This document shows positions 1 through 38,500 of a DNA stretch of 61,028 nt, piece after piece. Under the pieces are notes generated by a model. It was not told the origin of the DNA, searched no databases, and saw nothing but the letters and a program-made list of their open reading frames with translations. Where the stretch lies: positions 1 through 61,028 of the forward strand of contig JABHUE010000059.1 of the NCBI GenBank assembly GCA_018672825.1, read 5' to 3'. Within the stretch, counting starts at the first letter, position 1, and each line of letters opens with the position of its first letter. Source of the DNA: Pseudomonadota bacterium. Lineage in GTDB: Bacteria > Pseudomonadota > Gammaproteobacteria > Arenicellales > UBA868. The translations under genes were made by a program, and so were the position numbers.

Positions 1-677
1 ATCCCAAATACGGCGATACTCATCACCAAAATCAGCTGAACTGCAGGGATACGAAGCAGGCTTTTGAGATTCGCAAAAACCTCCCGAACAAATCTCGATT
101 CGGACCGATGCCGCTGTTCATGTCTGGCCACCCATAACCAAAAACCACCCGCGGCAAGGCTAGTCAAGCCCCACAACTGAAGTAGTCGTTGCCAGTTACC
201 GTCCATCATGGGTAATAAAATGGGTTGAGTCGCCAGAAGTGCAATCATCGCGCCCACGCCCGGGCCTGAAATATAGATCCCCATCGCGAATCCCCTTTGG
301 GATCCCGTGAAGTTTTCACTGACAACTTTCGGAGCACCTGCAGAGATCAAGGGGCCCCCAAGGCCAAACAACGAAACGGCCAGCAGTAACTCAACATAAC
401 TATCCGCAACCCCGCGAAACATTCCCGAGACACCGATCACCAGAGCCCCGGCCGCGAGGCCCCACTTTGCCCCGATTCGATCAAGAAGAAGACCGGCTGG
501 GATTGCGGCAAAAAGATAAATAAACTGCCACGCCGCCATAATGCTGCCCATCGCCGCGTGCGAAAATCGAAGACTACTTTCAACCTCTTCGACAAGTGGC
601 GCCAGACTTGCCATTGACAAACCAAAACTCATGTAGAGAAACCAGACACCTGCTAGTTTCCACCACCGATTTGTCAT
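1..677 (-). CDS. MFS transporter, partial (C-terminus outside window)
   Basis: N-terminal 225 residues of a major facilitator superfamily permease; the gene runs off the left edge with no stop. Hydrophobic helices are evident, and the loop after helix 2 carries the MFS signature (AGLLLDRIGAKWG, around residues 61-73). The general look resembles the CynX/NimT branch, but I cannot name a substrate. The ATG at 677 is only 4 nt past the stop of the DUF3726-like gene, so it is almost certainly the last visible gene of the operon that begins with the DddP-like protein. By context it may import the compound that operon processes (inference). Confidence 0.85.
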   Translation of the reverse strand, partial: MTNRWWKLAGVWFLYMSFGLSMASLAPLVEEVESSLRFSHAAMGSIMAAWQFIYLFAAIPAGLLLDRIGAKWGLAAGALVIGVSGMFRGVADSYVELLLAVSLFGLGGPLISAGAPKVVSENFTGSQRGFAMGIYISGPGVGAMIALLATQPILLPMMDGNWQRLLQLWGLTSLAAGGFWLWVARHEQRHRSESRFVREVFANLKSLLRIPAVQLILVMSIAVFG

Positions 678-681
678 ACCG

Positions 682-1440
682 CTAGTCAGAGTCGACGAGC
701 CCTGCTCCAGCGCCAAATTTCAGGGATTGCTCGGTCTCCGACACCAACAATAAGGACGCAAACTGCTGCAACTTCTCGATGATACTGCGACTAACAGACA
801 ACCCCACCCCATCAACCTCTCGCAGATATCGCTCTTCTGACTCCCGATCCAGCAGGATTTCCCCTCCTGAAAACGCACCACCCGGATCGATCGAACTTAC
901 TGTCAAACTATGAAGCCCTATTTCATCATCGGGCTGTATTTGCTGGCCAGCACAAACCAGAATTTCATTTTTTTTGGGCCGGCTTAAAAAATAAAGATCT
1001 GATGTGCTCGCAGATACTTCAGATTCAATATCAAGATCGCGACACGAAAGCGCGAGGGCGGCCGCCGAGAGTGTCGGACTATCCAGACCACGAAAAAAAA
1101 ACGGCTCGCCTTTGGAAGGCCAGCCCAATTGAACAGCGTCTGCAAGTTGGACACCAATATAAGCGCTCGATAAGTTCCCCCGCGAACTCGATAAGTTTAT
1201 CGCCCGATTCGATAGAGAAATAAATCCTGGATCAGAATCTTTACTGGCCAAACCTTTAATTGCGTCTAACGCCGCTTCGCCGCCAGCAAAGCCACAGGCC
1301 TGGAGCCAGACCGACGTTCGCGCCAGATCTTCACTTAGTCCCGGGGAGAGCCCAACCCCTCTTCCCGCCTTCGTTAGAAGCGTTCTGAACTCGGTCGCTG
1401 ATTGCCGCATTACCGCAATCAAGGCAGCGTGGGAAGCCAC
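682..1440 (-). CDS. DUF3726-like protein of unknown function
   Basis: A 252-residue soluble protein with no signal peptide or membrane segment. The N-terminal third (FRTLLTKAGRGVGLSPGLSE, then a 'WLQACGFAGG' stretch) matches my memory of the DUF3726 family, which opens with a similar 'KAARGAG...' motif; length also fits. No catalytic motif is recognisable. Its start overlaps the end of the 575-residue gene by 22 nt, and its stop lies 4 nt before the MFS start. It is therefore translationally tied to both and probably works in the same pathway. The family name is recalled, not searched. Confidence 0.72.
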   Translation of the reverse strand: MASHAALIAVMRQSATEFRTLLTKAGRGVGLSPGLSEDLARTSVWLQACGFAGGEAALDAIKGLASKDSDPGFISLSNRAINLSSSRGNLSSAYIGVQLADAVQLGWPSKGEPFFFRGLDSPTLSAAALALSCRDLDIESEVSASTSDLYFLSRPKKNEILVCAGQQIQPDDEIGLHSLTVSSIDPGGAFSGGEILLDRESEERYLREVDGVGLSVSRSIIEKLQQFASLLLVSETEQSLKFGAGAGLVDSD

Positions 1441-3146
1441 CAGTCATCCGTTAAATCTCCATCCAACTCTTCCGGTAACGGCGCGCCTTGAAACATCGTA
1501 ATTCGGGTCCAAAGAGCTGATTTTGGATCAAACTTAGCGGCTCCAAAATTCGCGAGCTTGAATCGCAGGATGTCGAGTGGCGAAGTGCCCTCGGCGATCA
1601 AATTGTCCTGGATCTCCCCGTAAGGTAAATCAGAAAGAGATTGAGCCCGTCGCACCAAATGTCTGAATTCGGGATGTGCAATTAGAAACTCTGCAAGACT
1701 CACAGACTGATCGAATGCCGCCAAGCCGGCTTTCAATGCGGACATATCTCGAGCAATCGCCACGGGCATTTCCTTATCCGCTCCTGGCTCCTCACGTCGA
1801 CGACCAAAACGGGGCTCAAGTTTATTTTCAGAGACATACCAGAAATGTGCATTTTCTGCGTCTCTAGAGAAGTCATACTGATCGACCCAAGCATACTGCT
1901 TATCAAACTGTTCCCGAAAGTCTCCTACCGTCATCGCAACATTAATTTGTCGTGTCTCACATGAATGAAAAGACTTTTCAAGATCCTCTACACATTCAGG
2001 GTATGTTTCGATAAGTAAAGCAACAAGCAACTCTTGGGCATCAATGCCAAACTCCGTTTCACTCCTGCGAACCAGATCATCCCAAAAACGCCCACAACGA
2101 TCGGACGATGAACTATTAGACAGCCAGTTCAGGAGAGTCTTAACATTCTCCCCGAGTCGGTGATTCCTTGATTGATACTCCAAATCACCGGAATGCCATT
2201 GCTCGAGATGACCAAGAACGCGCTGCGCAAGCGCTGCAGCACGATCAATACCTGCTTGCGATACGGAGTCGAGCGCCCGTACTCTTGCAAGCGCGGTTTC
2301 CCGAGCGTTAAACCATTCGTGAAATAACTCAGGGTGGCTCACAACAAAGGGCGCCATCCCAAGACCCGTTGCGTTACCAATACCTAGCGCGCGTTTGAGT
2401 TCAGGCATTAGCCTGACCGCCTTGCCGGGGGCTCGACATTCCGCGATATGATCCAACTGATCAACAGTGAAAAGACGGATCAAATAGACCGTTAACATCT
2501 CGATCTGAAACGAATTTTTAGCCTCTTCACGCCAATTAATTCTGGAGCGATCGCTGATGCCAAACTTGCCATTTCCATAAACCGCCGTGGTTCGCATCAG
2601 GTATCCAACCTCTAGAAGTTTATCGGCGTCGGGTTGATCACCATCCGCTAAGCAACTACAAACATATTCGAACAACCGCATACTCCGGTTCGCTCGAGAA
2701 ATAACTAAATCGGTTGCCTCAAAGCGTCCTGCTTCTTGATGCGGTGCATTATCCGCAAGGCGTTCCAGATCACCTTCTGTTGGCTTCCCGTCAAACAGAA
2801 CAAATGCGGCGTCCCATGCGGACGCGATCACACGGTCGGTACGCTGGTGGTCAGCGAGCGGATTGGCAAAAGCCGCCAGGGAATATTGACGATCAGGCGT
2901 ATGCACCTCATAAACCGCGCGACCATAACCCGAGGCATCCAGATCAAAACGCACTCTCTGAATCTGCCACATCTCTTCTTTCATTCGCCTGAGCAGAAGC
3001 CGCATAAAACTCAATCGAGTGGGAAACGCAGCTCCCATCCGATCCATCCGGCACACCATTTCTGGCGGTCGCAACGGTACGGTGTTCGAAAAAAGACCGT
3101 TACCCACTGCTCCCCTTTTGGTCAGCACATCAATGTCAAGGTTCAT
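1419..3146 (-). CDS. Unknown conserved protein, 575 aa, in DddP-like operon
   Basis: I do not recognise this family. It is a long cytoplasmic-looking protein with no signal peptide or membrane helix. It is rich in charged and aromatic residues and contains a glycine-rich patch (GIGNATGLGMAPFVV) followed by a charged helix with RETALARVRAL. There is no P-loop, Rossmann or zinc-binding pattern I can point to. The ATG at 3146 has a GGAGAG about 12 nt upstream. It lies 17 nt after the M19 gene and overlaps the DUF3726-like gene by 22 nt, so the two unknown proteins may be co-translated and could form a complex (inference). Confidence 0.75.
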   Translation of the reverse strand: MNLDIDVLTKRGAVGNGLFSNTVPLRPPEMVCRMDRMGAAFPTRLSFMRLLLRRMKEEMWQIQRVRFDLDASGYGRAVYEVHTPDRQYSLAAFANPLADHQRTDRVIASAWDAAFVLFDGKPTEGDLERLADNAPHQEAGRFEATDLVISRANRSMRLFEYVCSCLADGDQPDADKLLEVGYLMRTTAVYGNGKFGISDRSRINWREEAKNSFQIEMLTVYLIRLFTVDQLDHIAECRAPGKAVRLMPELKRALGIGNATGLGMAPFVVSHPELFHEWFNARETALARVRALDSVSQAGIDRAAALAQRVLGHLEQWHSGDLEYQSRNHRLGENVKTLLNWLSNSSSSDRCGRFWDDLVRRSETEFGIDAQELLVALLIETYPECVEDLEKSFHSCETRQINVAMTVGDFREQFDKQYAWVDQYDFSRDAENAHFWYVSENKLEPRFGRRREEPGADKEMPVAIARDMSALKAGLAAFDQSVSLAEFLIAHPEFRHLVRRAQSLSDLPYGEIQDNLIAEGTSPLDILRFKLANFGAAKFDPKSALWTRITMFQGAPLPEELDGDLTDDWWLPTLP

Positions 3147-3163
3147 AATCTTGCTATTCTCTC

Positions 3164-4147
3164 CTACGGCTGCTCGGGGCCAAATGACTTCTCAAAAAAG
3201 CGCAGCCAGTTATCTCCCATGACTGCGTTGACCGCGGTGTCATCAAGGCCGACTTTCTTCAATCCTGCTCTGAGCGACGGGAAGTCTCGGTTATCTTTAA
3301 ACCAAGCGGGTTGACCGGGAAAACCAGGGGATGCCTTGGATCCCTCACCGAAATCCTTCTCACGGGTCCAACGGCCATTTCTCATCCACTCGACCACGCT
3401 ATCGGGTTGGTCCTGACAAAGGTCTGAGCCAATCCCGATATGATCAATTCCCATGTCCTCGGCAGTATCTGCAATCATCTGACAGAAACTGTCCAATGTG
3501 CACGCGCTCCCTTCGGCTAGATGATGAGGATAAAGCGAAAATCCGATCATGCCGCCGGAATCCGACAATGCGCGAAGGACTGAATCGGATTTATTGCGCA
3601 AGGCAGGATGCCAACGCGATGGATTCGCATGAGTAATGGCAATAGGTCGTGCGGAGCACTCTATCGCTTCCAACGTCGACCGCTCTGCAGAGTGGCTCAT
3701 ATCAACGACCAATCCCACTCGATTCATTTCCGCGATAATCTGCTTTCCCATTCGAGTGATGCCTGGATCATCTGCCTCGTAACATCCAGTCGCCAATAAC
3801 GACTGATTATTATAGGAAAGCTGCATAAATCGAGCCCCGAGCTGATGGCAGATCTCAACGAGATCAATATCCGACTCGATCGGAGAACAATTCTGGAACC
3901 CATAAAAGATAGCGGTTTTATCTGCTTCATGTGCACGCAAAACATCTTCCGCCGTCCGGCCCGGCTGGATCAGATCGCTGTACTGATCAAACAAACGATT
4001 CCATTGCGAGATTCGATCAACCGTCTGACGAAAATCTTCGTGATACGCAATCGTGACATGAACCGCATCCAGACCCCCCTCACGCATCTGCTCAAAAATA
4101 TCGCGTGACCAGTTACAGTATTGCAAGCAATCAATAGTGATCTTCAT
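3164..4147 (-). CDS. M19 (membrane dipeptidase) family homologue, divergent metal site
   Basis: A 327-residue TIM-barrel amidohydrolase of the peptidase M19 family, recognised from the run 'NRVGLVVDMSHSAERS', 'PIAITHANP', 'LRNKSDSVLRALS' and 'IGIGSDL'. Classical renal-dipeptidase-type enzymes bind two zincs through an N-terminal HxD, a bridging Glu and two His. Here His152, His173 and Asp242 are kept, but the N-terminus reads IDCLQYCNW with no HxD, and the bridging-Glu region reads GFQN with no Glu. It may use one metal or do different chemistry. No signal peptide, so it is cytoplasmic, unlike most lipidated M19 enzymes. It sits between the DddP-like gene (21 nt) and the 575-aa gene (17 nt). 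Confidence 0.85.
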   Translation of the reverse strand: MKITIDCLQYCNWSRDIFEQMREGGLDAVHVTIAYHEDFRQTVDRISQWNRLFDQYSDLIQPGRTAEDVLRAHEADKTAIFYGFQNCSPIESDIDLVEICHQLGARFMQLSYNNQSLLATGCYEADDPGITRMGKQIIAEMNRVGLVVDMSHSAERSTLEAIECSARPIAITHANPSRWHPALRNKSDSVLRALSDSGGMIGFSLYPHHLAEGSACTLDSFCQMIADTAEDMGIDHIGIGSDLCQDQPDSVVEWMRNGRWTREKDFGEGSKASPGFPGQPAWFKDNRDFPSLRAGLKKVGLDDTAVNAVMGDNWLRFFEKSFGPEQP

Positions 4148-4168
4148 TAAGCAACCGTCGTCGAGATG

Positions 4169-5413
4169 TTAAAGCCAGTCAATTTCAAAATCGAGGGAAG
4201 ACATTCGCTCTGTGCCCGTCTCCGTGATAATAACCTGCTCCTCAAGTTTCACACCTTCACGCCCCCCGACCGACCCAATGAATGACTCTACACAAAGCAC
4301 CATGCCGGGTTCCACCATTCCTTCATAACCTCGGGTATTCAGATCTGCCTCGTGCTTAATGCTGGGATACTCATCCGCAAGACCCACTCCATGCATAAGC
4401 GACGGATAACGTTGCGATAAGTACTCATCCGGGATACGCCAACAATCCCTCGATACATCATGAAATGTTCGGCCGGGCCGAAGCGCCGCAATGTTGATCT
4501 CAATTTGCTCATAAGCGGCTGAATATAAACGCCGCTGTTCGTCACTAGGGTAGTCTCCACACAACCAAGAGCGGGAAATATCTGAGCAATATCCGTACGG
4601 CCCAATAAGATCTGTATCAAAACTGACAAGGTCATTCCTTTCAATAGGTCGCATCGAACATTCTCTGAACCAGGGATTGGTTCGCGGACCTGACGACAAC
4701 AAACGCGTCTCTATCCATTCACCGCCCAATCGAATATTTGTCTCATGGAGTTTCGCCCAAAGCGCATTTTCAGTAATACCGGGCTCAAGCGCAGCCTTCA
4801 TCGAGAGGCATCCCGCCTCACAGACTGCCATCGATGCACGCATTAACTCCAATTCGCCCGCAGATTTTATCGAGCGCGCCCTTTCGCACACGCCTTCGCC
4901 TTCAACCAAAATCAAACCACGTTCTCGAAGCGCGTCACAGGCTGGAAACGATAAACGGTCAACACCCAGCACCTGGTCATCACCACAATGGGTTTTCATT
5001 AGATCATCTATTTGATCTGCAAAAATCTTTACCCGATCAGGGCCATTGGGCCCGGCCGAAAAAAAATAAAAAGATGGAATCACTCGGTATTCATCTATTC
5101 CCGGCAAACCGTCGGCAAGGTGGGGGTGATTCGCATAGTCAAACAACACGACTGGACCGTTCTGGGCAATAAACACGCATCGCGTCTCATAGTGCGAGCA
5201 CCACACTTGCATGTTGGTCGCATCCGTCGCGTACCGGGTATTGATTTGATCAAACAAGAGTAGCCCAGCGACATTGTGCTTAGCCATTGATGATCGAAGT
5301 CCTGATAATCGATCTTGCCGAACGGTATCGAGATCAACGGGCGCATGACTATATTCCATCGCCCCGTGTTGACGAGGCGTCCGCTCGGCGCATTTTTCAG
5401 ATTCAATCGTCAT
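4169..5413 (-). CDS. DddP-like M24 family protein (candidate DMSP lyase / Xaa-Pro peptidase fold)
   Basis: A 414-residue creatinase/aminopeptidase-P (pita-bread) fold protein. Its closest match in memory is DddP, the M24-family DMSP lyase of roseobacters: shared blocks include RYATDATNMQ, GGEWIETRLLSSGPRTNPWF and SFDTDLIG. All six metal ligands expected for the fold are visible: Asp266, Asp268, Asp278, His341, Glu376 and Glu391. Two further residues discussed for DddP catalysis are also placed correctly: Tyr336 (five before the metal His) and Asp347 (six after it). DddP releases DMS and acrylate from dimethylsulfoniopropionate; many relatives are uncharacterised. First gene of the left operon; ATG at 5413 with GAGG about 10 nt upstream. 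A peptidase role on a different substrate is the main alternative. Confidence 0.82.
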   Translation of the reverse strand: MTIESEKCAERTPRQHGAMEYSHAPVDLDTVRQDRLSGLRSSMAKHNVAGLLLFDQINTRYATDATNMQVWCSHYETRCVFIAQNGPVVLFDYANHPHLADGLPGIDEYRVIPSFYFFSAGPNGPDRVKIFADQIDDLMKTHCGDDQVLGVDRLSFPACDALRERGLILVEGEGVCERARSIKSAGELELMRASMAVCEAGCLSMKAALEPGITENALWAKLHETNIRLGGEWIETRLLSSGPRTNPWFRECSMRPIERNDLVSFDTDLIGPYGYCSDISRSWLCGDYPSDEQRRLYSAAYEQIEINIAALRPGRTFHDVSRDCWRIPDEYLSQRYPSLMHGVGLADEYPSIKHEADLNTRGYEGMVEPGMVLCVESFIGSVGGREGVKLEEQVIITETGTERMSSLDFEIDWL

Positions 5414-5555: not shown

Positions 5556-7697
5556 CTAGAAGGATGACCGCCCAACGAACAGAAACTGCGGGTCGAGCGC
5601 CCGGGGACTGGATCCAACTACCTGAGATTGAAGGGAAAGATAAGCGCCAATATCGAATTGATCCGTCCAGGGCATCCGATATCCGACTTCCACTAATCCC
5701 TCAATCCCGCTAGTCGCAAAATTAATTCGATCCTGATATCGCAACACTCGGTTGTTTGGATCGATCCCGTAGGCAATATCCACATCAGCAGACCCGGAGT
5801 TAATACTGAGCGGCTGGGCAATTGTTAGCGAAACGCTGTCTCCAATTTTAAAAATCTCACGACCGCTCAAACCCAACATCCAAGCACTGGAAACCAAGTC
5901 AGAAAAATTCGTCAAAGATGAGCCAGTCTCAGAGTTCACCTCCGTATACCCTCCAGTCACCGAACCGACTAACGCAGTTTGAGCTGAAAGCATTCGATAG
6001 CCTGAAAATCTGAGGAATCGTGTCTCGGCATGATCAACGGCGAATGGGCCGCTTGCGGTTCCCCCAAAAAGACTCTTGCCCTCTGATAACCACCCACCCT
6101 CAATAGTGGCGCCAAAATCTCCAAACCTGACGTGCGAGGCCGCCGTGATCTGGGACCCTTGATAATTGTTGTCACTCGTATCATCTATGTCTGAATATCT
6201 TAAATCAAAGCCTACGCCAGGCGTCGCTTCAAAAGCGATCAGGCTATGTACGCCATCAGCGTCATAGTCCCCTAGACGGATTTTGCTATTCAAGAAGCTG
6301 CTCGGATTTAAAAACCCTTTCAATGACATCGCAAGGAAGGGGTCAGACTCAGCCTTTGGAAGCACCCCAAACCCGAGGTGACTCTGCAGTCCTTGCTCAT
6401 TCAAGGAACTGACAAGTAATACAGGATCTGTCGTCTGATCGTTATTAAATTGAGCGGGCGTAAATGAAAAGATTTGATGAGCAGATGATTGACCAATCAA
6501 GGCGGGCGTCTTCCCACGCTGCCAATCAGAATAAAATGAACGAGCTGAATTCATTGCGCCTTGCTCTTTCAGTGATGCTGAAAGATTCCAGTTAAAATCC
6601 CGATTAAACTGATCAAAAACCAAAACGCTCTCAAAAAATCCGCTTTCTTTCAACGCATTGAAAAGGGGTGCTCCAACGGTAAGCCGATGCAAAGAGACCT
6701 CTGTTGACTCAACGTCATCATCGCTCGACTCCTCTTCTTCGGTGGTCTCGGCTGGACTCGTTGTCCCTGGAGTTGACGGCGTATATACCAGGCCGATGGG
6801 CGAATAAGCCCTTGTGGGATTAATTTTTCCCCAGCCATATTTGGCATCCACTCCAGGCGCACCCATATCGGTCGCGGTTCGCTTGATAACCGCAACAATC
6901 TCCTCAGCTCTCAGATCTGGCCAACGAAAACGCAGGCCCGCCGCCAACGCGCTCACTCGCGGCGTGGCGAACGACGTACCCCAATAGTCTGCAAATTGTG
7001 ACGATCCCGTCGCAACCACATAATGCTGGGCCATATCACCAGCGTGGTTGCCAAATCCGAGCATCTCATCCTCAGGACCCAAGCCGCCAACGATTATCCC
7101 TTTCCCGGACAAACCGGGAGCATGTCGGGCGTCTCCAACGGGATAAGGTGCCCAGTTATTACCGGCTTGCATTACAACGACCTGATCGGCAACCGCGGTG
7201 GCCAGCATGGCCGCGCCAGAAACGCCTGCGAGCGCTGCGTTGGAATGGATAATCACTCGGATGTTCGGATTTGCTGCAGCGGCCATTAGGGCAGCTTCGA
7301 CCGCGCTACTCGAAACTGATTTCGATCCGGTCGAAGTCTGAAGCGACAAAATCTTACTTTGGGGTGTCAGGGTAAGAATGATCTGGGCTACCGCCGTACC
7401 ATGCGTTCCCTGCTTCGCTAGATCGACAAAAGGATTTTGACCCACATAACTTGCACTACCCGGCACAAATAACCCGGGATTAACGGCCGGATTCAACTGA
7501 ATGCCGGTGTCCAAAACGGCGACGCCGATTCCGGCTATTGGAGCTGGCGCAGGAGGTGGCGCTTCCACCTCCTCATCTTCCTCAACGACTGAGGCCGCGA
7601 AATCCCCGTCCCCGCCCTCCGCAAAAGCAAAGCCGGAATAAAAAACAAATAACGATAAAACAATCCATCCGATTGGAGTGCTGAAAAGATTCTTCAT
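5556..7697 (-). CDS. Secreted S8 (subtilisin-like) serine protease with autotransporter-like C-terminus
   Basis: 713 residues. An N-terminal signal peptide (charged MKNLF, hydrophobic core, cleavage near AFA-EG) precedes an acidic and proline-rich linker (residues 36-54). The catalytic domain follows with the S8 triad Asp63 (VAVLDTGI), His99 (GTHGTAVA) and Ser242 (GTSFATPRVS). An acidic Ser/Thr/Glu linker near residues 305-330 leads to a roughly 370-residue C-terminal part with alternating polar/hydrophobic strands ending in Phe, the usual outer-membrane barrel signature. This resembles autotransporter subtilases, but I cannot confirm a complete barrel. Single gene, followed by a hairpin at 5520-5540; start ATG at 7697. 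Confidence 0.85.
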   Translation of the reverse strand: MKNLFSTPIGWIVLSLFVFYSGFAFAEGGDGDFAASVVEEDEEVEAPPPAPAPIAGIGVAVLDTGIQLNPAVNPGLFVPGSASYVGQNPFVDLAKQGTHGTAVAQIILTLTPQSKILSLQTSTGSKSVSSSAVEAALMAAAANPNIRVIIHSNAALAGVSGAAMLATAVADQVVVMQAGNNWAPYPVGDARHAPGLSGKGIIVGGLGPEDEMLGFGNHAGDMAQHYVVATGSSQFADYWGTSFATPRVSALAAGLRFRWPDLRAEEIVAVIKRTATDMGAPGVDAKYGWGKINPTRAYSPIGLVYTPSTPGTTSPAETTEEEESSDDDVESTEVSLHRLTVGAPLFNALKESGFFESVLVFDQFNRDFNWNLSASLKEQGAMNSARSFYSDWQRGKTPALIGQSSAHQIFSFTPAQFNNDQTTDPVLLVSSLNEQGLQSHLGFGVLPKAESDPFLAMSLKGFLNPSSFLNSKIRLGDYDADGVHSLIAFEATPGVGFDLRYSDIDDTSDNNYQGSQITAASHVRFGDFGATIEGGWLSEGKSLFGGTASGPFAVDHAETRFLRFSGYRMLSAQTALVGSVTGGYTEVNSETGSSLTNFSDLVSSAWMLGLSGREIFKIGDSVSLTIAQPLSINSGSADVDIAYGIDPNNRVLRYQDRINFATSGIEGLVEVGYRMPWTDQFDIGAYLSLQSQVVGSSPRALDPQFLFVGRSSF

Positions 7698-25098: not shown

Positions 25099-26412
25099 CT
25101 AGATCCCAAGACGATCCAAAAATCCATACCACCCTACAGAAGCGGACAGGAACCATGGGTTACCGTAGTAGCCGGGGCGGGTTCGAAAAGGTAAGTCAGA
25201 AAGCACCGTGCGTCCCGCTTCTTGCCCCATGATTTGCTGACCCAGTCTTGTGCCGAAATAAGTGGAAAGCGCAACACCTGATCCACAATACCCCATTGAG
25301 TACCAAATACCGTCATGTCGCCCAATATGCGGCATGTGCTGGAACGTCCAACCGACAAATCCCATCCAGGAGTGGCTGATTTTCGCTGTTCGCAGCTGTG
25401 GGAAAATCGCAGTCATGTGTCTGTGGAGTCGGGGCGCGCTAATCCGAGGATCAGTCTCGTTGAGAGATACCCGGCCGCCAAATATTATTCGCCTGCCATC
25501 GGGAGACAATCGAAAATAAACAACAATGCGGCGGGAATCCACCACCATGCGATCTCGGGGTATCAGCGATCGGGCGACATCGTCACCAAGGTCTTCTGTC
25601 GCGATCATATAACTCCCGATCGAAAAAACCCGTCGATGGAGCCAAGGTGTTAATCGGGATGTATAGCCATTTGTTGCGACCACAACCTCGGCAGCATGTA
25701 CCGCACCACGTGACGTCTGAATATCGAAACCTGCACCCTTTGACCGCTTCAAAACCCCAAGCGCTTCAGTGAAGCCCTCCACTATGACCCCCGCTTCCCG
25801 CACTTTCCCGAGAACGCCTCGATGGTAGGCTGCAGGATCCACAGAAGCAAACTGCGTTTGAACAATTCCGCCGTGATAAAAATCCGAACTTATCTCTTCA
25901 CGTTGATCCTCTCGTTGCACTAACTGCGCATCGACTTCCAAGCCTTTCTGCTGCGCGTTGATCTTACGTTTAAGTTTTTCAAAATGCCTGGGAGAGTGCG
26001 CGCCGTAAAATCGCCCACACACCCGATAATCACAATCGATTCCTTCCTCCTGTATGAAATCACCAATCGAGCTAATCGCCCGAAGCCCTTCGCGGTGGGC
26101 CTCGAAAGCCGTGTGCGACCCATGATCTTTTGCGAGCGCGTCGAAATCAGGCTTGATTCCCGTCGAGATTTGTCCACCGTTTCTGGAACTGCACCCCCAG
26201 CCCGGCTCGTTTGCATCAATCACCAGTGTCGATTTTCCGCCGCGCGCCGTCTGCAATGCAGCGCAAAGCCCTGTGTAGCCTGAACCAATAATCAGGACAT
26301 CAACATTCTTAGGCAACGGTGCAGGATCAGGGTTGTCCAGAGGCGAACGATCCCACCAAAAAGGTCGATCCTTAAAATCATGCGAAAAAAGATCATCTGT
26401 AGATTTCGGCAT
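25099..26412 (-). CDS. FAD-dependent amine oxidase, PuuB-like (DAO family)
   Basis: 437 residues. The N-terminal 'RPFWWDRSP' leader followed by the FAD Rossmann motif GSGYTG (43-48) and 'EPGWGCSSRNGGQ' is typical of the gamma-glutamylputrescine oxidase branch of DAO/GlpO oxidoreductases. A C-terminal 'YSMGYCGSGVALSTYFG' completes the FAD site. It probably oxidises a primary or secondary amine to an aldehyde plus H2O2 or reduced acceptor. A PuuA-like ligase is 2.7 kb away on the same strand, supporting a gamma-glutamylated amine as substrate (inference). It lies 36 nt downstream of the enolase-superfamily gene. Confidence 0.87.
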   Translation of the reverse strand: MPKSTDDLFSHDFKDRPFWWDRSPLDNPDPAPLPKNVDVLIIGSGYTGLCAALQTARGGKSTLVIDANEPGWGCSSRNGGQISTGIKPDFDALAKDHGSHTAFEAHREGLRAISSIGDFIQEEGIDCDYRVCGRFYGAHSPRHFEKLKRKINAQQKGLEVDAQLVQREDQREEISSDFYHGGIVQTQFASVDPAAYHRGVLGKVREAGVIVEGFTEALGVLKRSKGAGFDIQTSRGAVHAAEVVVATNGYTSRLTPWLHRRVFSIGSYMIATEDLGDDVARSLIPRDRMVVDSRRIVVYFRLSPDGRRIIFGGRVSLNETDPRISAPRLHRHMTAIFPQLRTAKISHSWMGFVGWTFQHMPHIGRHDGIWYSMGYCGSGVALSTYFGTRLGQQIMGQEAGRTVLSDLPFRTRPGYYGNPWFLSASVGWYGFLDRLGI

Positions 26413-27798: not shown

Positions 27799-29106
27799 AT
27801 GAATACAGTCTCGCGAAGTTCTCCCCAACAGCAAGTTGCCGGCGTCTTGATCCTGCTTATGATTTTTTCATCTGTGCTTGGGGCATCGGGACTTCAGGAC
27901 TTCCTCTGGATATCAGGAATCAGCGCGTTGGTCGCGCTCATTCTTTTATGGCCCCGAATGAGTCGCACTCAGCACATTCAATGCGGGATATTTTTTGGTG
28001 TGGGTTTCCTCGGTTTAGGCCTCGCCTGGGTAAACGGCTATCGTGAAATCCCCATTCAAAGATTCATCACCCAAAATCATCTATTAATTAGCTTGCTTTC
28101 AGCCGTGAGCTTTCTAAGATTGATTACAGATACTCGCCTAGAGACGCCTGAAGTCATTAAAACGGGGAGCAAGGCATTCTGGCAAACGATTGGCGGTGTT
28201 CACCTTTTTGCGTCAGTAATTAATATATCGGCATTTATTATCTTCGGCGATGCGCTAAAAAAAAATGGGCGCCTCGATCGAACAACCGCTACCTCGATTC
28301 AACGAGGGTTTGCACTCGCTGCACTCTGGTCCCCGTTTTTTGCAGCAATGGGAACCTGTCTGCTTTATGCCCCGGGGTCAAAATGGACTCATTTACTTCC
28401 ACTATCTATTCCCATTACCGTGCTGGGCCTTACGATTACCTGGGCGGAACACCGCTTCAGAAAAAACGGAAACTTGGATCTTTTTAAAGGATATCCAGTT
28501 AATTTTCACGCACTGTGGGTTCCCTCACTGATGGTGGTTTGCGTTCTTATCGCGCACAACATCCTGCCCCAAATATCGGTCCTGGTGCTTGTATCGGCAT
28601 TATCGATCAGCATCACAACCGTCGTGCTTATCGCTAAACGACACCTTCTTCCCGCGTTGAAAACGATCCAAGATTTCAGTCAGAACCGACTGCCTGATAT
28701 CTATGGCGAACTGGCCCTTTTTTTCAGCACCGGCGTTATGGCGACAGGAATTACGGTCTTCATTGGACAGGCACCGCTTACATTTGGCATTGAAGCGTTC
28801 ACGCCTGCTATTGCCGTAATTGTGATGGGCGTTCTATTGCTTCTAGCGTTTATTGGCGTCCATGCGATTGTGAGCATTGTCGCAGCTTCTGCGATTCTGC
28901 TACCGCTTAATCCAGATCCACTCATGCTCGCGCTGATATTTTTGGTCACGTGGTCCGTAGGATCGACCGGGGGACCCATTTCTGGATTAAACCTCGCGAT
29001 GCAAGGGCGATACGGTATCACCGCTTTTCAGTGCTTCGCCTGGAACATTATCTACACGCTAATCATCTTCATCGGCTCCAGCATCTTGATATTGACGATT
29101 TTTTAA
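27799..29106 (+). CDS. Polytopic membrane protein, ion-transporter-superfamily-like
   Basis: 435 residues with roughly ten to twelve hydrophobic helices and short loops. Two patches resemble the ArsB/DASS-type transporter superfamily: 'RGFALAALWSPFFAAMG' and near the end 'GSTGGPISGLNLAMQGRYGI', which look like re-entrant loops. No close family name. It stands alone on the plus strand between the enolase gene and the convergent PuuA-like gene. The 174-nt upstream gap shows no recognisable site. A carboxylate or organic-ion carrier is a fair guess only. Confidence 0.72.
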   Translation: MNTVSRSSPQQQVAGVLILLMIFSSVLGASGLQDFLWISGISALVALILLWPRMSRTQHIQCGIFFGVGFLGLGLAWVNGYREIPIQRFITQNHLLISLLSAVSFLRLITDTRLETPEVIKTGSKAFWQTIGGVHLFASVINISAFIIFGDALKKNGRLDRTTATSIQRGFALAALWSPFFAAMGTCLLYAPGSKWTHLLPLSIPITVLGLTITWAEHRFRKNGNLDLFKGYPVNFHALWVPSLMVVCVLIAHNILPQISVLVLVSALSISITTVVLIAKRHLLPALKTIQDFSQNRLPDIYGELALFFSTGVMATGITVFIGQAPLTFGIEAFTPAIAVIVMGVLLLLAFIGVHAIVSIVAASAILLPLNPDPLMLALIFLVTWSVGSTGGPISGLNLAMQGRYGITAFQCFAWNIIYTLIIFIGSSILILTIF

Positions 29107-29120
29107 CCTGCTAACCAAGG

Positions 29121-30494
29121 TTATTCTGGAGAGAGATACCATCGATATTCAAGCGGCGTGAATTCTTGGGAAAACGCATCCAATTCCGTTTGTTTGCATT
29201 CTTTATAAAGTCGGGAATACGACTCCCCTAAATAACCCGACAAAGAATCGCCCTTGGAAAATTGATCCAATGCAGCTTGCCAGGTAAAGGGCATTTGAGA
29301 ATCAAGTTCAGCACCCGCATTATCCGCTCGCGGTTCTGGCGGCGTAATTTCATTAATCAACCCATGATGAACACCCGCGAGTACAGCCGCTAGTGCCAGA
29401 TATGGATTTGCGTCAGCTCCTGCAACCCGATGCTCAATGCGCTTCGATTCGGGCGAACCCGCGGGAACCCGCAGGGCAACCGAGCGGTTGTTGTATCCCC
29501 AGGTGGCTGCCGTGGGTACATAGAGATTTGGCGCAAAACGACGAAATGAATTCACATTCGGCGCGAAAATAGCCATCGATTCTGGCAACAACTCAAGAGC
29601 GCCTGCAACGGCATGCCGAAGCTGATCGTTACACTCTTCTGATCCATCATTGAAGATATTCTTACCATCGCCATCCAGTATGCTCACGTGAACATGAAGT
29701 CCATTGCCCGCGCCGTCGGGATACGGTTTTGCCATAAAGCTGGCGACTGCACCATGCTTTCTCGCAATTCCTTTAATAACGCGCTGCAAAAGAATGGCAT
29801 CGTCAGCAGCCTTTAGCGGATCGTCAACATGGTTAAGATTGATCTCATATTGGCCCACTGCATACTCAGCAGTTGTGGCCCCGACCGGAATATCCTGAAC
29901 TCGACAGATCGTCTCGACCTCGCTCAGAAACCCCGTAAAACCGTCCAGATCGGCGAGGCTATAAACCTGTGTTGCAGTTGCCTGCCGGCCCGTCTCTGGC
30001 AGCACCGGTGGCGTCGGCTGATTCGTCTCGGCGCTTGACGCATCCAGTAAATAGAACTCCAATTCAAGCGCAACAACAGGGTTGAGGCCAGATGCATGAA
30101 AACGCTCGACCACTTTTTTTAAAACGTGCCGCGGATCGACTTCGCAGGGAGAGCTGTCGAGCTCATAAAGGCATCCCATCACCTGAGCAGCCCCTGGTCC
30201 TGCCCATGGTGTCGGTTTGAGCGACCCTAATACCGGCCAAATCTGGACGTCAGGGTCTCCATCAGAAAATCCTCGACCCCCCGCATCAGTACAATTGCCA
30301 TTCACATCTAATAAGTATATCGAGCTGGGTATTTGTAAGCCTTCGGTATAGAGCTTATCGAATTGATCACGACTAATCCGTTTTCCGCGGATGATGTTAC
30401 ATAGATCCGGGAGGAGCACATCAACATATTCGCAGTCTGGGTGGGATTGCAAAAATGCTTCAAACTCGGCCTTTAGTTCTGACTGGTGTTGCAT
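29121..30494 (-). CDS. Glutamine-synthetase-like ligase, PuuA-type (gamma-glutamylpolyamine/amine synthetase)
   Basis: 457 residues. GS fold with N-terminal 'VDVLLPDLCNIIRGKRI' (beta-grasp typical of the PuuA branch), 'ALELEFYLL' (metal Glu), 'QYEINLNH', 'PDGAGNGLHVHVSI' (ATP/metal His) and 'RRFAPNLYVP...WGYNNRS' with 'RIEHRVAGADANPYLA'. PuuA-like enzymes couple glutamate to putrescine or other amines with ATP; gamma-glutamylmethylamide synthetases are another close possibility given the methyl-amine genes nearby. The upstream MFS gene ends 3 nt before its start, so the pair is an operon. Confidence 0.88.
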   Translation of the reverse strand: MQHQSELKAEFEAFLQSHPDCEYVDVLLPDLCNIIRGKRISRDQFDKLYTEGLQIPSSIYLLDVNGNCTDAGGRGFSDGDPDVQIWPVLGSLKPTPWAGPGAAQVMGCLYELDSSPCEVDPRHVLKKVVERFHASGLNPVVALELEFYLLDASSAETNQPTPPVLPETGRQATATQVYSLADLDGFTGFLSEVETICRVQDIPVGATTAEYAVGQYEINLNHVDDPLKAADDAILLQRVIKGIARKHGAVASFMAKPYPDGAGNGLHVHVSILDGDGKNIFNDGSEECNDQLRHAVAGALELLPESMAIFAPNVNSFRRFAPNLYVPTAATWGYNNRSVALRVPAGSPESKRIEHRVAGADANPYLALAAVLAGVHHGLINEITPPEPRADNAGAELDSQMPFTWQAALDQFSKGDSLSGYLGESYSRLYKECKQTELDAFSQEFTPLEYRWYLSPE

Positions 30495-30497
30495 AAC

Positions 30498-31820
30498 TTA
30501 ATTCAGTTTGTTTAAGCCAGTATCATATCGTTCTGAAAGCTGGCGTCCATGGGTCTCTTTGGAGAGTGAGATACTAATTACTGAAATAACCAACCAGATC
30601 AACATCAACGAGAATCCAAGCCGGTAGCTCTCATATCCATACGTCCGTAGCCCGCTCGCATCGAATCCCCCTTGCCACAACTTATCCAGCAACCAGCCGA
30701 TGAGCGGTTGCAGGATCATTGGTCCGCACATCACACCCATATTCACCACGCCTGATACCGTCCCGGAAAGACTGATCGGCACCGATTCTTTAGCTTGGGT
30801 AAACCCAAGAATCATCCCGCCCGAAAAAAATCCTGCGCCCAACAAAGAAACGACCAGTGCCCATAAAGGCAGTCCGGGCATCAGAATAACTAGAGACCAG
30901 CATCCGAGCGCGAGAAGTGCCCCGCTGAGATAGAGGATACGCCTGTTTTTCAATCTCTCGGAAAAAAGTCCGAACAGGGGCCCGCTGAAGGCCCACGACA
31001 ACATAATCCCTGAACATAGCATAGCGGCTATGTTTGTTGGCAACTGGTAGACATCTGTTAAAAACGGCATACCCCAGAGTCCAGAGAATGCGAGAACTGA
31101 GCCCACAATACCACCGGGCGCGAGCGCCAAGAGCCATGTATTGCGATACGCAAACACAGATTTCAAATTTTGCAGCTCGCCCGCCCTGCGGGAGGTTGAA
31201 CGACCTTGTTCAACATAGGACGCAAAACCCTTTTCGGTCGGATCATCTCTAACGATAAACCAAACGGCTAAGGCGAGAAAAAGCCCAATCGCAGAAACCA
31301 CGAGCGTTACAACGCGCCAGCCAACCGCGTCACTGGCTAAATGAAGCGGCACGCCAGCGAAAACGGCACCCATCATTCCCGCAACCAATAACAGGCCAGC
31401 AGCAAGCGAGAATTGCTCCGTCGGCAGCCAATGTGTTGCGAGTTTAAGTGTGCAAACAAATCCTACCGCCACCGAGCCTCCGATTAAAAACCTTCCAAGA
31501 CCTGCCCAGAATAAAGATGGTGCGAGTGCAAAAAGTATCGCGCCCAGCGTGCTGATAAATATTCCGCCTATCAGCAGACGACGCGGTCCTACCCGATCCG
31601 CGATCAGGCCGGTCGGAATCTGCATCGCCACATAAGAATAAAAATAAAGAGCAGATAGACTGCCTAAGGATGTTGCATTTAACCCAAAATCGACACTCAG
31701 TTCCCGATGCAAAACGGCAGGCGCGACCCGATGGAAAAATCCTAACAAAAATAAGCCGGCACCCAGACCCCACACGGACCACGCCAGCGCCGCGGGAGGG
31801 GAGTTTCTGGGAATACTCAT
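30498..31820 (-). CDS. MFS transporter
   Basis: 440 residues, twelve hydrophobic helices, with the MFS loop motif 'GLIADRVGPRRLLIGG' between helices 2 and 3 and a central cytoplasmic loop (around 205-220). Fused in expression to the PuuA-like ligase (3-nt gap), so it probably imports the ligase's amine or carboxylate substrate (inference). Upstream, a 202-nt gap separates it from the divergent sox genes; I see no clear operator or riboswitch there. Confidence 0.9.
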   Translation of the reverse strand: MSIPRNSPPAALAWSVWGLGAGLFLLGFFHRVAPAVLHRELSVDFGLNATSLGSLSALYFYSYVAMQIPTGLIADRVGPRRLLIGGIFISTLGAILFALAPSLFWAGLGRFLIGGSVAVGFVCTLKLATHWLPTEQFSLAAGLLLVAGMMGAVFAGVPLHLASDAVGWRVVTLVVSAIGLFLALAVWFIVRDDPTEKGFASYVEQGRSTSRRAGELQNLKSVFAYRNTWLLALAPGGIVGSVLAFSGLWGMPFLTDVYQLPTNIAAMLCSGIMLSWAFSGPLFGLFSERLKNRRILYLSGALLALGCWSLVILMPGLPLWALVVSLLGAGFFSGGMILGFTQAKESVPISLSGTVSGVVNMGVMCGPMILQPLIGWLLDKLWQGGFDASGLRTYGYESYRLGFSLMLIWLVISVISISLSKETHGRQLSERYDTGLNKLN

Positions 31821-32022: not shown

Positions 32023-33291
32023 ATGAAACCCTATTCTGCGTGGAAAGTGTTCCTGAATGGCATGAACGGTCAAAAAGGATGGACGCGTGCCTGGCGAGAC
32101 CCTGAGCCTAAAAAGGAATATGACGTCATCATCGTTGGCGCAGGCCTCCACGGACTCGCCACCGCATACTACCTCGCAAAAAACCACGGTGTCACGAATA
32201 TCGCGGTCGTGGAAAAAGGCTGGCTTGGCGGGGGAAACGGAGGAAGAAACACCACGATTGTCAGATCAAATTATATGATGCCCGGAAATCGGGAGTTCTA
32301 TGAGCACTCACTCAAGCTCTGGGAAAATCTGAGTCACGATCTAAATTACAACGTAATGTTCAGTCAGCGCGCTCATGTCAGTCTGCTGCACAGCCCTGCA
32401 GCAAGAGATGCCGCTGCACGTCGGTATAACACGATGCGATTAACAGGTGCGGACGGTGAGCTGTGGGATCTTCCCACCCTTAAGCGGAACATTCCACACC
32501 TCAATTTTGATGCTGATGCTCGCTTCCCAATTACCGGCGCGATGGTTCAACCTCGAGCAGGCACGGCTCGTCATGATGCGGTAGCGTGGGGTTACGCGCG
32601 GGGTGCAGATCAATATGGCGTTGATATTCTGCAGAATCGAGAAGTGATTGCCGTCCATCGGGACAGTGGGAAAATCACCGGTGTCGAGACAACCCGAGGT
32701 CTTATCAAGGCGAAAAAAGTGGGATTCGCTGTCGCGGGCAATACCTCCCGACTCTGGCGAATGACAGATCTGGGTCAGTTACCCATAGAGTCTCACAAGC
32801 TTCAAGCATTTGTCTCAGAGCCTCTCAAACCCCTACTTGATCATGTGGTCGTTTTTGGAGTGGGTGGCGCTCATTTCTATATCTCCCAGTCTGACAAGGG
32901 CGGAATGGTTTTTGGAGGCGACCTGGACTGGTATAAGTCGTATGCTCAACGCGGCAACCTTCCCATTGTTCAGGATGTGGCCGAATGCGCGACGTCAGTA
33001 CTGCCCTGTCTTGGCCGTGTGCGCCTGCTTCGCCACTGGTCAGGCGTAATGGATATGTCAATGGATGGATCTGCATTCATCTGCAAAACGCCAATTAACA
33101 ATCTCTACCTTAATGCAGGGTGGAACTATGGCGGGTTCAAAGCAAGTCCCGCATCCGGATGGTTCTTCGCGGACCTCATCGCGAATGACCGACCCGACCC
33201 TGTAATACAAAACTTTACGCTAGACAGATTCTCCCGAGGTATTAATATCGATGAGCGGGGTGCGGGACCCGATCCAAAACTTCATGGCTGA
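32023..33291 (+). CDS. soxB: Sarcosine oxidase, beta subunit
   Basis: 422 residues. FAD/NAD Rossmann motif VIIVGAGLHGLATAY (35-49), 'GGGNGGRNTTIVRSNYM' and 'GTARHDAVAWGYARG'. His184 in the last motif is the probable covalent FMN attachment site by analogy with heterotetrameric sarcosine oxidase. The beta subunit oxidises sarcosine (N-methylglycine) to glycine, passing electrons to oxygen at the FMN, while the alpha subunit transfers the methyl carbon to tetrahydrofolate. First of four contiguous genes; 8 nt before soxD. Confidence 0.95.
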   Translation: MKPYSAWKVFLNGMNGQKGWTRAWRDPEPKKEYDVIIVGAGLHGLATAYYLAKNHGVTNIAVVEKGWLGGGNGGRNTTIVRSNYMMPGNREFYEHSLKLWENLSHDLNYNVMFSQRAHVSLLHSPAARDAAARRYNTMRLTGADGELWDLPTLKRNIPHLNFDADARFPITGAMVQPRAGTARHDAVAWGYARGADQYGVDILQNREVIAVHRDSGKITGVETTRGLIKAKKVGFAVAGNTSRLWRMTDLGQLPIESHKLQAFVSEPLKPLLDHVVVFGVGGAHFYISQSDKGGMVFGGDLDWYKSYAQRGNLPIVQDVAECATSVLPCLGRVRLLRHWSGVMDMSMDGSAFICKTPINNLYLNAGWNYGGFKASPASGWFFADLIANDRPDPVIQNFTLDRFSRGINIDERGAGPDPKLHG

Positions 33292-33299
33292 ATAATCTG

Positions 33300-33602
33300 A
33301 TGCTCCGAATACAGTGCCCCTTTTGCGGTCTTCGTGACCATAGCGAGTTCAGTTATGGCAGCGATGCCTCGGTTGAATATCCGCCGCTCGATGGCTCTCA
33401 AGAGGCGTGGCATGACGCCGTATTCCAAAGAGAAAATATCGATGGTGTCCAATTGGAAACTTGGCAACATACATTAGGGTGTCGAATGTGGATTGTCGTG
33501 GAACGCAACACACGGACGCATGACATCCTCTCTGTTCGACCCGCCCACGACGGAATGGCTCAAGCGCTCAACACGTCTCTAATTACCGAGCCTGACCAAT
33601 GA
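33300..33602 (+). CDS. soxD: Sarcosine oxidase, delta subunit
   Basis: 100 residues, normal delta-subunit size. N-terminal MLRIQCPFCGLRDHSEF carries the CxxC (Cys6, Cys9) that with 'HTLGCRMW' near residue 60 forms the small zinc site. Structural subunit of the heterotetramer. Overlaps soxA by 4 nt. Confidence 0.95.
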   Translation: MLRIQCPFCGLRDHSEFSYGSDASVEYPPLDGSQEAWHDAVFQRENIDGVQLETWQHTLGCRMWIVVERNTRTHDILSVRPAHDGMAQALNTSLITEPDQ

Positions 33603-36580: not shown

Positions 36581-37130
36581 TCGTTGCTCCGCGCTTGCGG
36601 CTTATTACCCGACCGGACTCCATGGTCGACCTGGAGAGCCCGGGGTGAAACTACAAGAAATTCCCGATCTTAGCCTTTGGCAAATTGCCGGATGGCCGGA
36701 CACGATGGAATTGATCCATTTGGCAATCACCGACGGTATGAACTCAGATCGGTTGCCCGCTGGGCGAGCACTCGCAGGATCAAAAGGCGTTGCCTTTCAA
36801 GTGGAACCTCTAAAGTTTTGGTTATTAGCAGAGGCGCCACCCGTTTTTAAGGAAGCCCACGGGGTTATCCTTGACCTATCGCACTCGCGGACGCAGATCC
36901 GGATATCGGGTCCGGAAGCCCAAACCTGCTTAAGCCGGCTTCTCCCTCTCGACCTTCGAGATCACAGTTTCCCCCAAAACGCCGTGGCGTCTAGCGGTAT
37001 CCATCATGTCGGAATAACGCTTTGGAGGAGTGAGCTCGGGTTTGAGCTGTTTATCCCAAGAGGATTTGCACGGTCTATCTGGGAATTGCTTCTCGAAACT
37101 GCTGAACAATTTGGATCCGAAGTCATCTAA
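36573..37130 (+). CDS. soxG: Sarcosine oxidase, gamma subunit
   Basis: 185 residues from the ATG at 36573, which overlaps the soxA stop by 8 nt; an earlier in-frame ATG lies deep in soxA. The 'LSHSRTQIRISGPEAQTCLSRLLPLDLR' region (in two parts: HSRTQIRISGPEA, then LSRLLPLDL) is typical of SoxG. Its TAA shares bases with the TAG of the convergent amine-oxidase gene, so there is no room for a separate terminator. No glyA or purU follows, unlike many sox operons. Confidence 0.92.
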   Translation: MANRCSALAAYYPTGLHGRPGEPGVKLQEIPDLSLWQIAGWPDTMELIHLAITDGMNSDRLPAGRALAGSKGVAFQVEPLKFWLLAEAPPVFKEAHGVILDLSHSRTQIRISGPEAQTCLSRLLPLDLRDHSFPQNAVASSGIHHVGITLWRSELGFELFIPRGFARSIWELLLETAEQFGSEVI

Positions 37131-38446
37131 CCCAAAACTGAAAAACTGCTCTCCGGATTTATCCGTCGCATCCGAGACATTTCTCCAGTATCAAGATTGT
37201 ATTCAATATGTTCCAGCGAAAACTGAAATGGACTTATGTCGTGATTATTACCGGCTTCACAGTAATCGATTAACCCTGCCATTAATCTTCCCGCTGCCGG
37301 CGCGTTCTTGAACTGATTACCGCTGCTCCCGCATGCCATATAAAACCCATCAATTATTGATCGATCATAGATAGGCATCCAATCTTCGGTAACATCATAA
37401 AGGTCGACCACCCCGCGCATACGTGACGGAAACTCCAAACCGCCCATCCGTTGAGCCAAACGAAGCGCTTGTGTCATTGCCTGATTCGAAAAATTTCGAT
37501 CAAAACTATCAGCGTTGTCGATCCATTGATGTGAATCACATGGCGGATCTTCGCTTCCGACCAAGACGAAATTCCCGTTCTCGGGTCTACAATAGACTCC
37601 GATATCACTGTCAGAGACGACTAAGCCTGCTTTTTCGAAATCGAGGCCCGCGGGAGCTGGAACATGAGCCACCTCCTGCCGCAGCGCCCGAGTTGTGATG
37701 CACATGTCGACATCCGCGCCAGCTAATTTATTCAACTCCGAGGAATGAGGTCCACCCACGTTCACTACGACAGGTGCTGCGATCTCAGTGCCATCATCCA
37801 AAACGACACCTTTGACTCGTCCATTTTCAGAGGGTATTTTAATAACTCGACGATTAAATATAAATTCGCACCCCGCATTTTCAGCGGCGTCCTTTATGTT
37901 TTGAGTCGCTAACTGCGGATCTGATATAAAACCCGCAGTGGGGAAAAATGCAGCACCTCTAACTTCGCCCGAAGTCGCCTCACCAAAATGCGGATCATCG
38001 ACTGTTTTTGCCGGAGCGAAACATCGAAGATCATAATTAGGTAATCGACTCAGTATGTCTTGTGGCGTCCAATCTTCAAAAGGAATTGACAATTCCTTTA
38101 CATTAGCGAGAACCTTCTCAAGGTGATTATTGGATTCTGTTTTCATTACCAAACATCCAGTTTGGCAAAATCTCGCAAAACTCTCCTCTTTTGATTCACC
38201 AAGGTCTAGATATTCCGCCCAATGGAGCCAATCAAAAAATCCATCGTACGCAAACGCAGTCCCCGCGACAGTGGAGTAATGAACCCGGATGATTGCGCAT
38301 GAACTGGACGTCGATCCATAGCCCGCTGACGGGAGTTTGTCGACACAGATCACCGCTCGCCCCTGTTTTGAAAGCTCATAAGCTGTCGCCGCACCGATAA
38401 CGCCTGCTCCAATCACGACTGCATCTGCATTGACCTGTCTAGTCAT
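37127..38446 (-). CDS. FAD-dependent amine oxidase (DAO family), sarcosine/dimethylglycine-oxidase-like
   Basis: 439 residues from the ATG at 38446, which has GGAGG 7 nt upstream; a TTG six bases earlier is too close to it. FAD motif 'VVIGAGVIGAATAYELS' near residues 11-27, 'TSSSCAIIRVHYST', and a C-terminal 'FYMACGSSGNQFKNAPAAG' that closes the FAD site. No GcvT domain, so any carbon released would be formaldehyde or similar. Head-to-head with soxG (stop codons overlap), so convergent transcription may couple the two. Substrate probably an N-methylated amino acid (inference). Confidence 0.86.
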   Translation of the reverse strand: MTRQVNADAVVIGAGVIGAATAYELSKQGRAVICVDKLPSAGYGSTSSSCAIIRVHYSTVAGTAFAYDGFFDWLHWAEYLDLGESKEESFARFCQTGCLVMKTESNNHLEKVLANVKELSIPFEDWTPQDILSRLPNYDLRCFAPAKTVDDPHFGEATSGEVRGAAFFPTAGFISDPQLATQNIKDAAENAGCEFIFNRRVIKIPSENGRVKGVVLDDGTEIAAPVVVNVGGPHSSELNKLAGADVDMCITTRALRQEVAHVPAPAGLDFEKAGLVVSDSDIGVYCRPENGNFVLVGSEDPPCDSHQWIDNADSFDRNFSNQAMTQALRLAQRMGGLEFPSRMRGVVDLYDVTEDWMPIYDRSIIDGFYMACGSSGNQFKNAPAAGRLMAGLIDYCEAGNNHDISPFQFSLEHIEYNLDTGEMSRMRRINPESSFSVLG

Positions 38447-38500
38447 TAGCAAGCCTCCATTTAATTCACTGAATCTCCCGATTTAAATCCATCCGCGCTC

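Follow-up and report, generated by a model that had tools for sequence, protein, structure and literature searches.

The 61,028-nucleotide contig JABHUE010000059.1, from a marine gammaproteobacterium of the UBA868 lineage (assembly GCA_018672825.1), begins with a tight row of five minus-strand genes. They encode a DddP-like M24-family protein, an M19 dipeptidase-fold protein, a 575-residue protein (here referred to as U575), a DUF3726 protein, and a permease of the major facilitator superfamily (MFS). Which of these genes belong together, and on what kind of compound would their products act? Throughout, "the window" means this complete contig (G000:C79), which is part of a 2.57-Mb draft genome. 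The operon is real and conserved, and it is probably catabolic. On balance, we favor the reading that it represents one version of a widespread operon by which bacteria break down an N-methylated compound of the betaine type, with homarine (N-methylpicolinate) as the leading candidate.

The operon and its conserved core

The five genes of the operon, from the first gene onward, are as follows.

4169-5413, minus strand: M24-family protein, DddP-like, first operon gene (Pfam M24, 121 bits; NCBIfam DddP, 401 bits)
3164-4147, minus strand: M19 dipeptidase-fold protein with half of its metal site lost (Pfam M19, 253 bits)
1419-3146, minus strand: U575, an open reading frame (ORF) of 575 amino acids (aa) without a family or fold match, conserved among relatives
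682-1440, minus strand: DUF3726 protein with a predicted Ldh_2-type fold (Pfam DUF3726, 30.3 bits)
3-677, minus strand: MFS permease, incomplete at the contig end (Pfam MFS_1, 83 bits)

From the M24 gene to the permease gene, the intergenic spacings are 21, 17, -22 (an overlap at 1419-1440), and 4 nt. This row and its spacings had been given in a preliminary description of the locus and are confirmed here, and the family calls made there (M24/DddP-like, degenerate M19, unknown 575-aa protein, DUF3726-like, and MFS) are all upheld by profile and residue comparisons. The permease gene starts at an ATG near 677, which is codon 14 of its ORF, and it is incomplete because the window is a whole contig, cut by the assembly. 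In near relatives and the sister species, the complete permease has 400 to 416 aa and is the last gene of the run, before pcnB. The downstream pcnB-folK-panB-panC genes are housekeeping genes, with pcnB identified in relatives by a Pfam match and folK, panB, and panC by gene order and length only. Since the same five-gene order was found again in the sister species, the arrangement is far beyond chance.

We searched for U575 in three samples: 61 relatives, 274 genomes spread by family over the class, and 399 genomes spread over the phylum. It was present in 43, 12, and 29 of these genomes, respectively. Neighbors were counted at 97 U575 loci, with tblastn recovering M19 genes that the ORF scan had overlooked. 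Near U575 were genes for M19 (89 loci), an aldehyde dehydrogenase (ALDH; 42 loci), Ldh_2 (29 loci), a BCCT importer (26 loci), and M24 (23 loci). In all but two of the first 50 loci (48/50), U575 adjoins a DUF3726-like protein, and the two are a single fused coding sequence in Mesorhizobium. The unit of conservation is the M19-U575-DUF3726 trio, which keeps its gene order in many marine and soil bacteria.

The M24 gene has a narrower distribution. It adjoins the trio in 21/21 loci of the window's family that have enough upstream sequence. A second family of this order has it ~7 kb from the trio at two loci, and it is at no other trio locus among the 97. Relatives of M24 with about 60 to 74% identity are found in U575-free genomes or distant from U575; in one lineage, such a relative is part of an acyl-CoA operon that also encodes a beta-keto acid cleavage enzyme and lacks the trio. 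Because M24 is near U575 at so few loci, in two families only, and has relatives in U575-free genomes, it falls outside the conserved core: it is an operon member in the window's lineage and a lineage-specific addition. The preliminary description had grouped M24 with the core and expected the U575-DUF3726 set to recur with both the M24 and M19 genes, an expectation borne out for M19 (89/97 loci) but not for M24 (23/97 loci). It had also named the occurrence of the two unknown proteins without these genes as grounds for rejecting its proposal; this is the situation at most loci for M24, while M19 is mostly present. Its broader proposal of a dedicated catabolic operon with an importer stands, upheld by the recurrence of the operon and by its neighboring genes.

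Some loci depart from the usual arrangement. At L068 (G016:C95), the operon is decaying: M24, a DUF3726 fragment, and MFS are left along with a short U575 remnant, and M19 was not detected. At four loci of one alphaproteobacterial family (L132, L135, L140, and L144), U575 has TamB/Omp85 genes on one side and YcjX-type DUF463/DUF697 genes on the other; M19 is just upstream in three of the four, and no importer was detected. Apparent U575 fusions of 909 to 922 aa were dismissed; since the extension carries no Pfam domain and the corresponding stretch at L120 holds M19 by tblastn, they seem to be ORFs called too long in GC-rich DNA.

Neighboring genes and the link to an N-demethylase

Relatives of the operon in Rhodobacterales, Rhizobiales, and Vibrio share the arrangement divergent LysR / ALDH - M19 - (BCCT) - U575 - DUF3726 - Ldh_2, with BCCT variable in this position, together with a betaine importer. 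Annotated records with the operon come from Ruegeria TM1040, Phaeobacter, Tritonibacter, Sulfitobacter, Alisedimentitalea, Aliiroseovarius, Shinella, Aminobacter, Pararhizobium, Mesorhizobium, and Roseateles. In these records LysR is usually divergent, Ldh_2 is usually present, BCCT and a glycine-betaine-type ABC importer are often present, and RidA, purU, and folD are neighbors in some. The ALDH is closest to 2,5-dioxovalerate/alpha-ketoglutaric semialdehyde dehydrogenases, at scores below their cut-offs. Within the window's order but outside its family (28 genomes), U575 was found in 16 genomes, including 8/8 of those with the ALDH (Fisher P = 0.008, relatedness ignored). A divergent form in Sinorhizobium and Neorhizobium, with a U575 of about 31% identity, has IclR, an unnamed protein of about 240 aa, M19, other ABC genes, and RidA; the Sinorhizobium form also has an aminotransferase.

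A second cluster in the window encodes a complex whose counterparts stand beside the operon elsewhere.

32023-33291, plus strand: soxB-type subunit of a heterotetrameric N-demethylase (TIGR01373, 622 bits)
33306-33536, plus strand: soxD-type subunit, extent of the profile match (PF04267, 95.8 bits)
33599-36580, plus strand: soxA-type subunit (TIGR01372, 1198 bits, cut-off 1164)
36435-37130, plus strand: gene in the soxG position, ORF start uncertain (GCV_T-like match; follows soxA)

In at least five records, genes of the soxBDAG type adjoin the operon: those of Ruegeria TM1040, Aliiroseovarius, Shinella, Roseateles, and Phaeobacter M632, for the last of which the gamma subunit, at least, was seen. 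In a maximum-likelihood tree, the U575-adjacent SoxB proteins and the window's SoxB form one clade (support 97/95, or 100/98 in a narrower set), and a second SoxB type of the same genomes is separate from it. This second type scores about 600 bits against the solved sarcosine oxidase, compared with 410 bits for the window's SoxB, and has glyA (serine hydroxymethyltransferase) directly upstream, a family match that was run on one locus. The higher score and the upstream glyA are as expected for a true sarcosine oxidase. By its lower score, its separate clade, and the lack of glyA, the cluster at 32023-37130 does not group with the characterized sarcosine oxidase; the glyA-linked sarcosine oxidase of this genome is separate, on contig C13.

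Genomes with U575 tend to carry SoxD. In the class sample, SoxD was found in 12/12 U575 genomes versus 33/274 overall (Fisher P = 1e-12), and two or more SoxD copies were found in 12/12 versus 17/274 (P = 2e-17). The corresponding numbers in the phylum sample were 21/29 versus 97/399 (P = 2e-8); relatedness is ignored in all three tests. The generalization that every U575 genome has SoxD was dropped, as it is true in the relatives and the class sample but fails in the phylum sample.

The variety of these neighborhoods also bears on whether the operon has one substrate. Its substrate might instead be a different N-methylated ring betaine (trigonelline and stachydrine are examples), or there might be several such substrates according to lineage, with U575 copies that have diverged in substrate. 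Some genomes do have two U575 copies with different neighbors, the Sinorhizobium form is distant in both sequence and gene content, and MTTB, DMGDH-like, and homocysteine methyltransferase genes stand beside some copies. At two Rhodobacterales-like loci, L142 and L129, U575 is near DAO+GCV_T (DMGDH-like), homocysteine methyltransferase, and PEP-mutase-family genes, and at L142 also near MTTB; these neighbors hint at a diverged U575 substrate. However, the order ALDH-M19-U575-DUF3726-Ldh_2 and the soxBDAG neighbor recur in both Rhodobacterales and Rhizobiales, which suggests a single substrate for the main form, and we consider this alternative unlikely.

Predicted properties of the encoded proteins

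The M19 protein scores far above the cut-off of its Pfam family (253 versus 26 bits), and its closest PDB entry is 2i5g (222 bits). In 28/28 relatives, the full dinuclear metal site is missing: the HxD motif is replaced (invariant L8 and Q9, mostly Y10), and the bridging Glu is a Gln (Q85). H152, H173, and D242 are kept, and 2i5g has the same metal-site changes. Judged from these residues, the M19-fold protein has lost half its metal site.

For U575, searches of Pfam, NCBIfam, and the PDB gave no match, and a search of viral contigs found no relatives. Its AlphaFold model has a predicted local distance difference test (pLDDT) score of 87 and a predicted template modeling (pTM) score of 0.89, and a Foldseek search of this model against the PDB and viral models returned nothing below E 0.4. 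Given this confident model and the many invariant charged residues in the alignments, U575 is likely an enzyme or a ligand-binding protein, and as a predicted fold without a PDB match it is a ready target for structure determination. Homology to most relatives begins at about residue 22, so the start codon is uncertain. A literature search for PA5396/PA5397 found no paper, nor did one for DUF3726.

The DUF3726 protein belongs to its Pfam family (PF12525; 30.3 bits versus a cut-off of 22.1) and has no match to Pfam Ldh_2 (PF02615). Its model (pLDDT 83) retrieved only Ldh_2-family enzymes as Foldseek hits 1 to 27 in the PDB (probability 1.00, TM score about 0.5). The predicted fold is thus shared with the NAD(P)-dependent dehydrogenases of the Ldh_2 family, such as ureidoglycolate dehydrogenase and piperideine-2-carboxylate reductase, but the DUF3726 protein has about 250 aa versus 335 in those enzymes. 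The SHG catalytic motif is present in the neighboring true Ldh_2 and absent from DUF3726. An hhalign comparison of the two gave a weak, in-register, N-terminal match just before SHG (E 5e-4, probability only 30%, 40 columns). From these comparisons, we predict an Ldh_2 dehydrogenase fold without the catalytic His for the DUF3726 protein.

The best PDB match of the M24 protein is the dimethylsulfoniopropionate (DMSP) lyase DddP (4rzy, 327 bits). Its residues D266, D268, D278, H341, D347, E376, and E391 align to residues of 4rzy that we take to be the metal ligands and catalytic Asp of DddP. M24 therefore shares the fold and aligned active-site residues of this lyase, but at 401 bits it falls below the curated cut-off of 600 for the DddP family (NCBIfam NF043017), and it sits in a different operon. 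Could the operon nonetheless handle DMSP or a derivative, with M24 as a true DddP lyase and the other genes processing its products or a related sulfonium osmolyte? M24 retains every residue aligned to the 4rzy metal ligands and to the catalytic Asp and Tyr, BCCT importers carry DMSP in some bacteria, and one trio copy, in Phaeobacter inhibens (pPGA1_262; L145), lies beside a DMSP demethylase gene, an AMP-binding gene, and dmdD. Set against these points are the low DddP score, the absence of M24 at most trio loci, and the M24 relatives in a trio-free acyl-CoA operon elsewhere; moreover, the Sox, RidA, Ldh_2, and betaine ABC partners are more in line with an amine. We regard a DMSP-related role as quite improbable.

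Proposed pathway and candidate substrate

From the genes, their order and conservation, the predicted folds, the lost residues, and the co-occurrence observed here, we infer a substrate, a series of reactions, and a U575-DUF3726 complex. Betaine importers, a semialdehyde dehydrogenase, Ldh_2, RidA, and a folate-linked N-demethylase as neighbors suggest that an N-methylated betaine is broken down to an N-methyl amino acid, which is then demethylated. The permease (MFS in the window, BCCT or a betaine ABC importer elsewhere) would import the betaine, and U575 and the DUF3726 protein would act on the imported molecule as one complex. The M19-fold protein, having a reduced metal site at most, would perform a further C-N hydrolysis or isomerization rather than peptide cleavage. 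In most lineages, completing the carbon skeleton would fall to the ALDH and the Ldh_2 reductase. In the window's family, the position of the ALDH is taken by the DddP-like M24, and in the window's genus Ldh_2 is also missing from the locus. The last step would be demethylation of the resulting N-methyl amino acid by the soxBDAG-type folate-linked complex (32023-37130 in the window).

One sarcosine-oxidase-type complex is Mgd. Phytoplankton contain much homarine and similar betaines, which marine bacteria quickly take up (PMC12817926). Homarine fits the scheme because it is a betaine, because Ruegeria pomeroyi takes it up rapidly (PMC12817926), and because Mgd has been reported to act in its catabolism (PMC13390433). 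In place of the ALDH, Ldh_2, and BCCT, the window's form of the operon has M24 and MFS. A paper on homarine catabolism by Ferrer-Gonzalez et al. (2026, Nat Microbiol 11:1531; cited in PMC13390433) reportedly describes an operon, homABCDER, of five genes and a regulator, with N-methylglutamate as the product. The alphaproteobacterial operon found here likewise has five enzyme genes and LysR with a sarcosine-oxidase-type complex adjoining, a likeness in layout. The core operon may already have been described in that paper. The preliminary claim that the operon matches no described pathway is weakened accordingly, and also by the relatives that have a soxBDAG-type complex and betaine importers alongside. 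We found no description of the M24/MFS variant, which looks new, nor of the Ldh_2-like DUF3726 or the unmatched U575 fold.

Several points weigh against this reading. The identity of the published homarine genes with those of this operon is only a lead, suggested by the operon name. A close ALDH is missing from the window's family, and Ldh_2 from the locus in its genus (the window's genome has three Ldh_2 genes in other places); the permease is an MFS rather than a betaine-type importer, and the scheme assigns no explained role to M24. In the phylum sample, 8/29 U575 genomes, from two Vibrio-type families, are without SoxD, and the P. inhibens copy at L145 keeps company with DMSP genes. A further weak point is the window's SoxB, which is no more than a candidate N-methylglutamate dehydrogenase.

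A bolder version of the homarine proposal, which we hold to be possible but doubtful, is that U575 and the catalytically altered Ldh_2-like DUF3726 together make up a novel type of enzyme, its fold absent from the PDB, that opens the N-methylated pyridinium ring of homarine without a recognizable oxygenase, M24 having been recruited in place of the ALDH in the window's lineage. If the pathway proposed here is true, it would assign functions to two widely conserved proteins so far without a known one and offer a scheme that can be tested. It would also mean that evolution has put a dipeptidase fold and a dehydrogenase fold to new use and that a gammaproteobacterial variant has swapped pathway parts.

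A close parallel in layout is the pepD-hp-dgcAB-fixAB cluster of Pseudomonas and Vibrio natriegens, a dimethylglycine operon with a predicted dipeptidase gene at its head, before dgcAB (PMC12093977). It likewise opens an N-methylamine catabolic operon with genes for a predicted dipeptidase and an unknown protein and has BCCT, purU, and soxBDAG nearby (PMC12093977). The operon described here is without dgcAB. Such a predicted dipeptidase among dimethylglycine genes would also suit a trio that is a substrate-unspecific accessory module, for example, one that deals with a C1 by-product or a reactive imine arising in several N-demethylation pathways. RidA, purU, and folD as neighbors are consistent with that role, as is the constancy of the trio where transporters and dehydrogenases differ by lineage. 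A regular LysR-linked operon with its own importer nevertheless resembles a pathway, and U575 is absent in 21/33 SoxD-bearing genomes of the class sample. An accessory role therefore seems very improbable to us, and we retain the betaine pathway as the preferred reading.

Some other genes of the window are of note. The sox-type cluster is flanked by genes for a glutamine-synthetase-like protein (29121-30494), an MFS protein (30498-31820), and two DAO-family oxidases (25099-26412 and 37127-38452). Beside it, 27799-29106 encodes a 435-aa protein that has no Pfam or NCBIfam match and is found in the same place in the sister genome G008. Elsewhere in the window, 38501-39727 encodes a 408-aa protein with a DUF4329 domain at its C terminus. 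Directly upstream of the operon, 5556-7697 encodes a 713-aa subtilase-family (S8) protein whose position is kept in the sister species.

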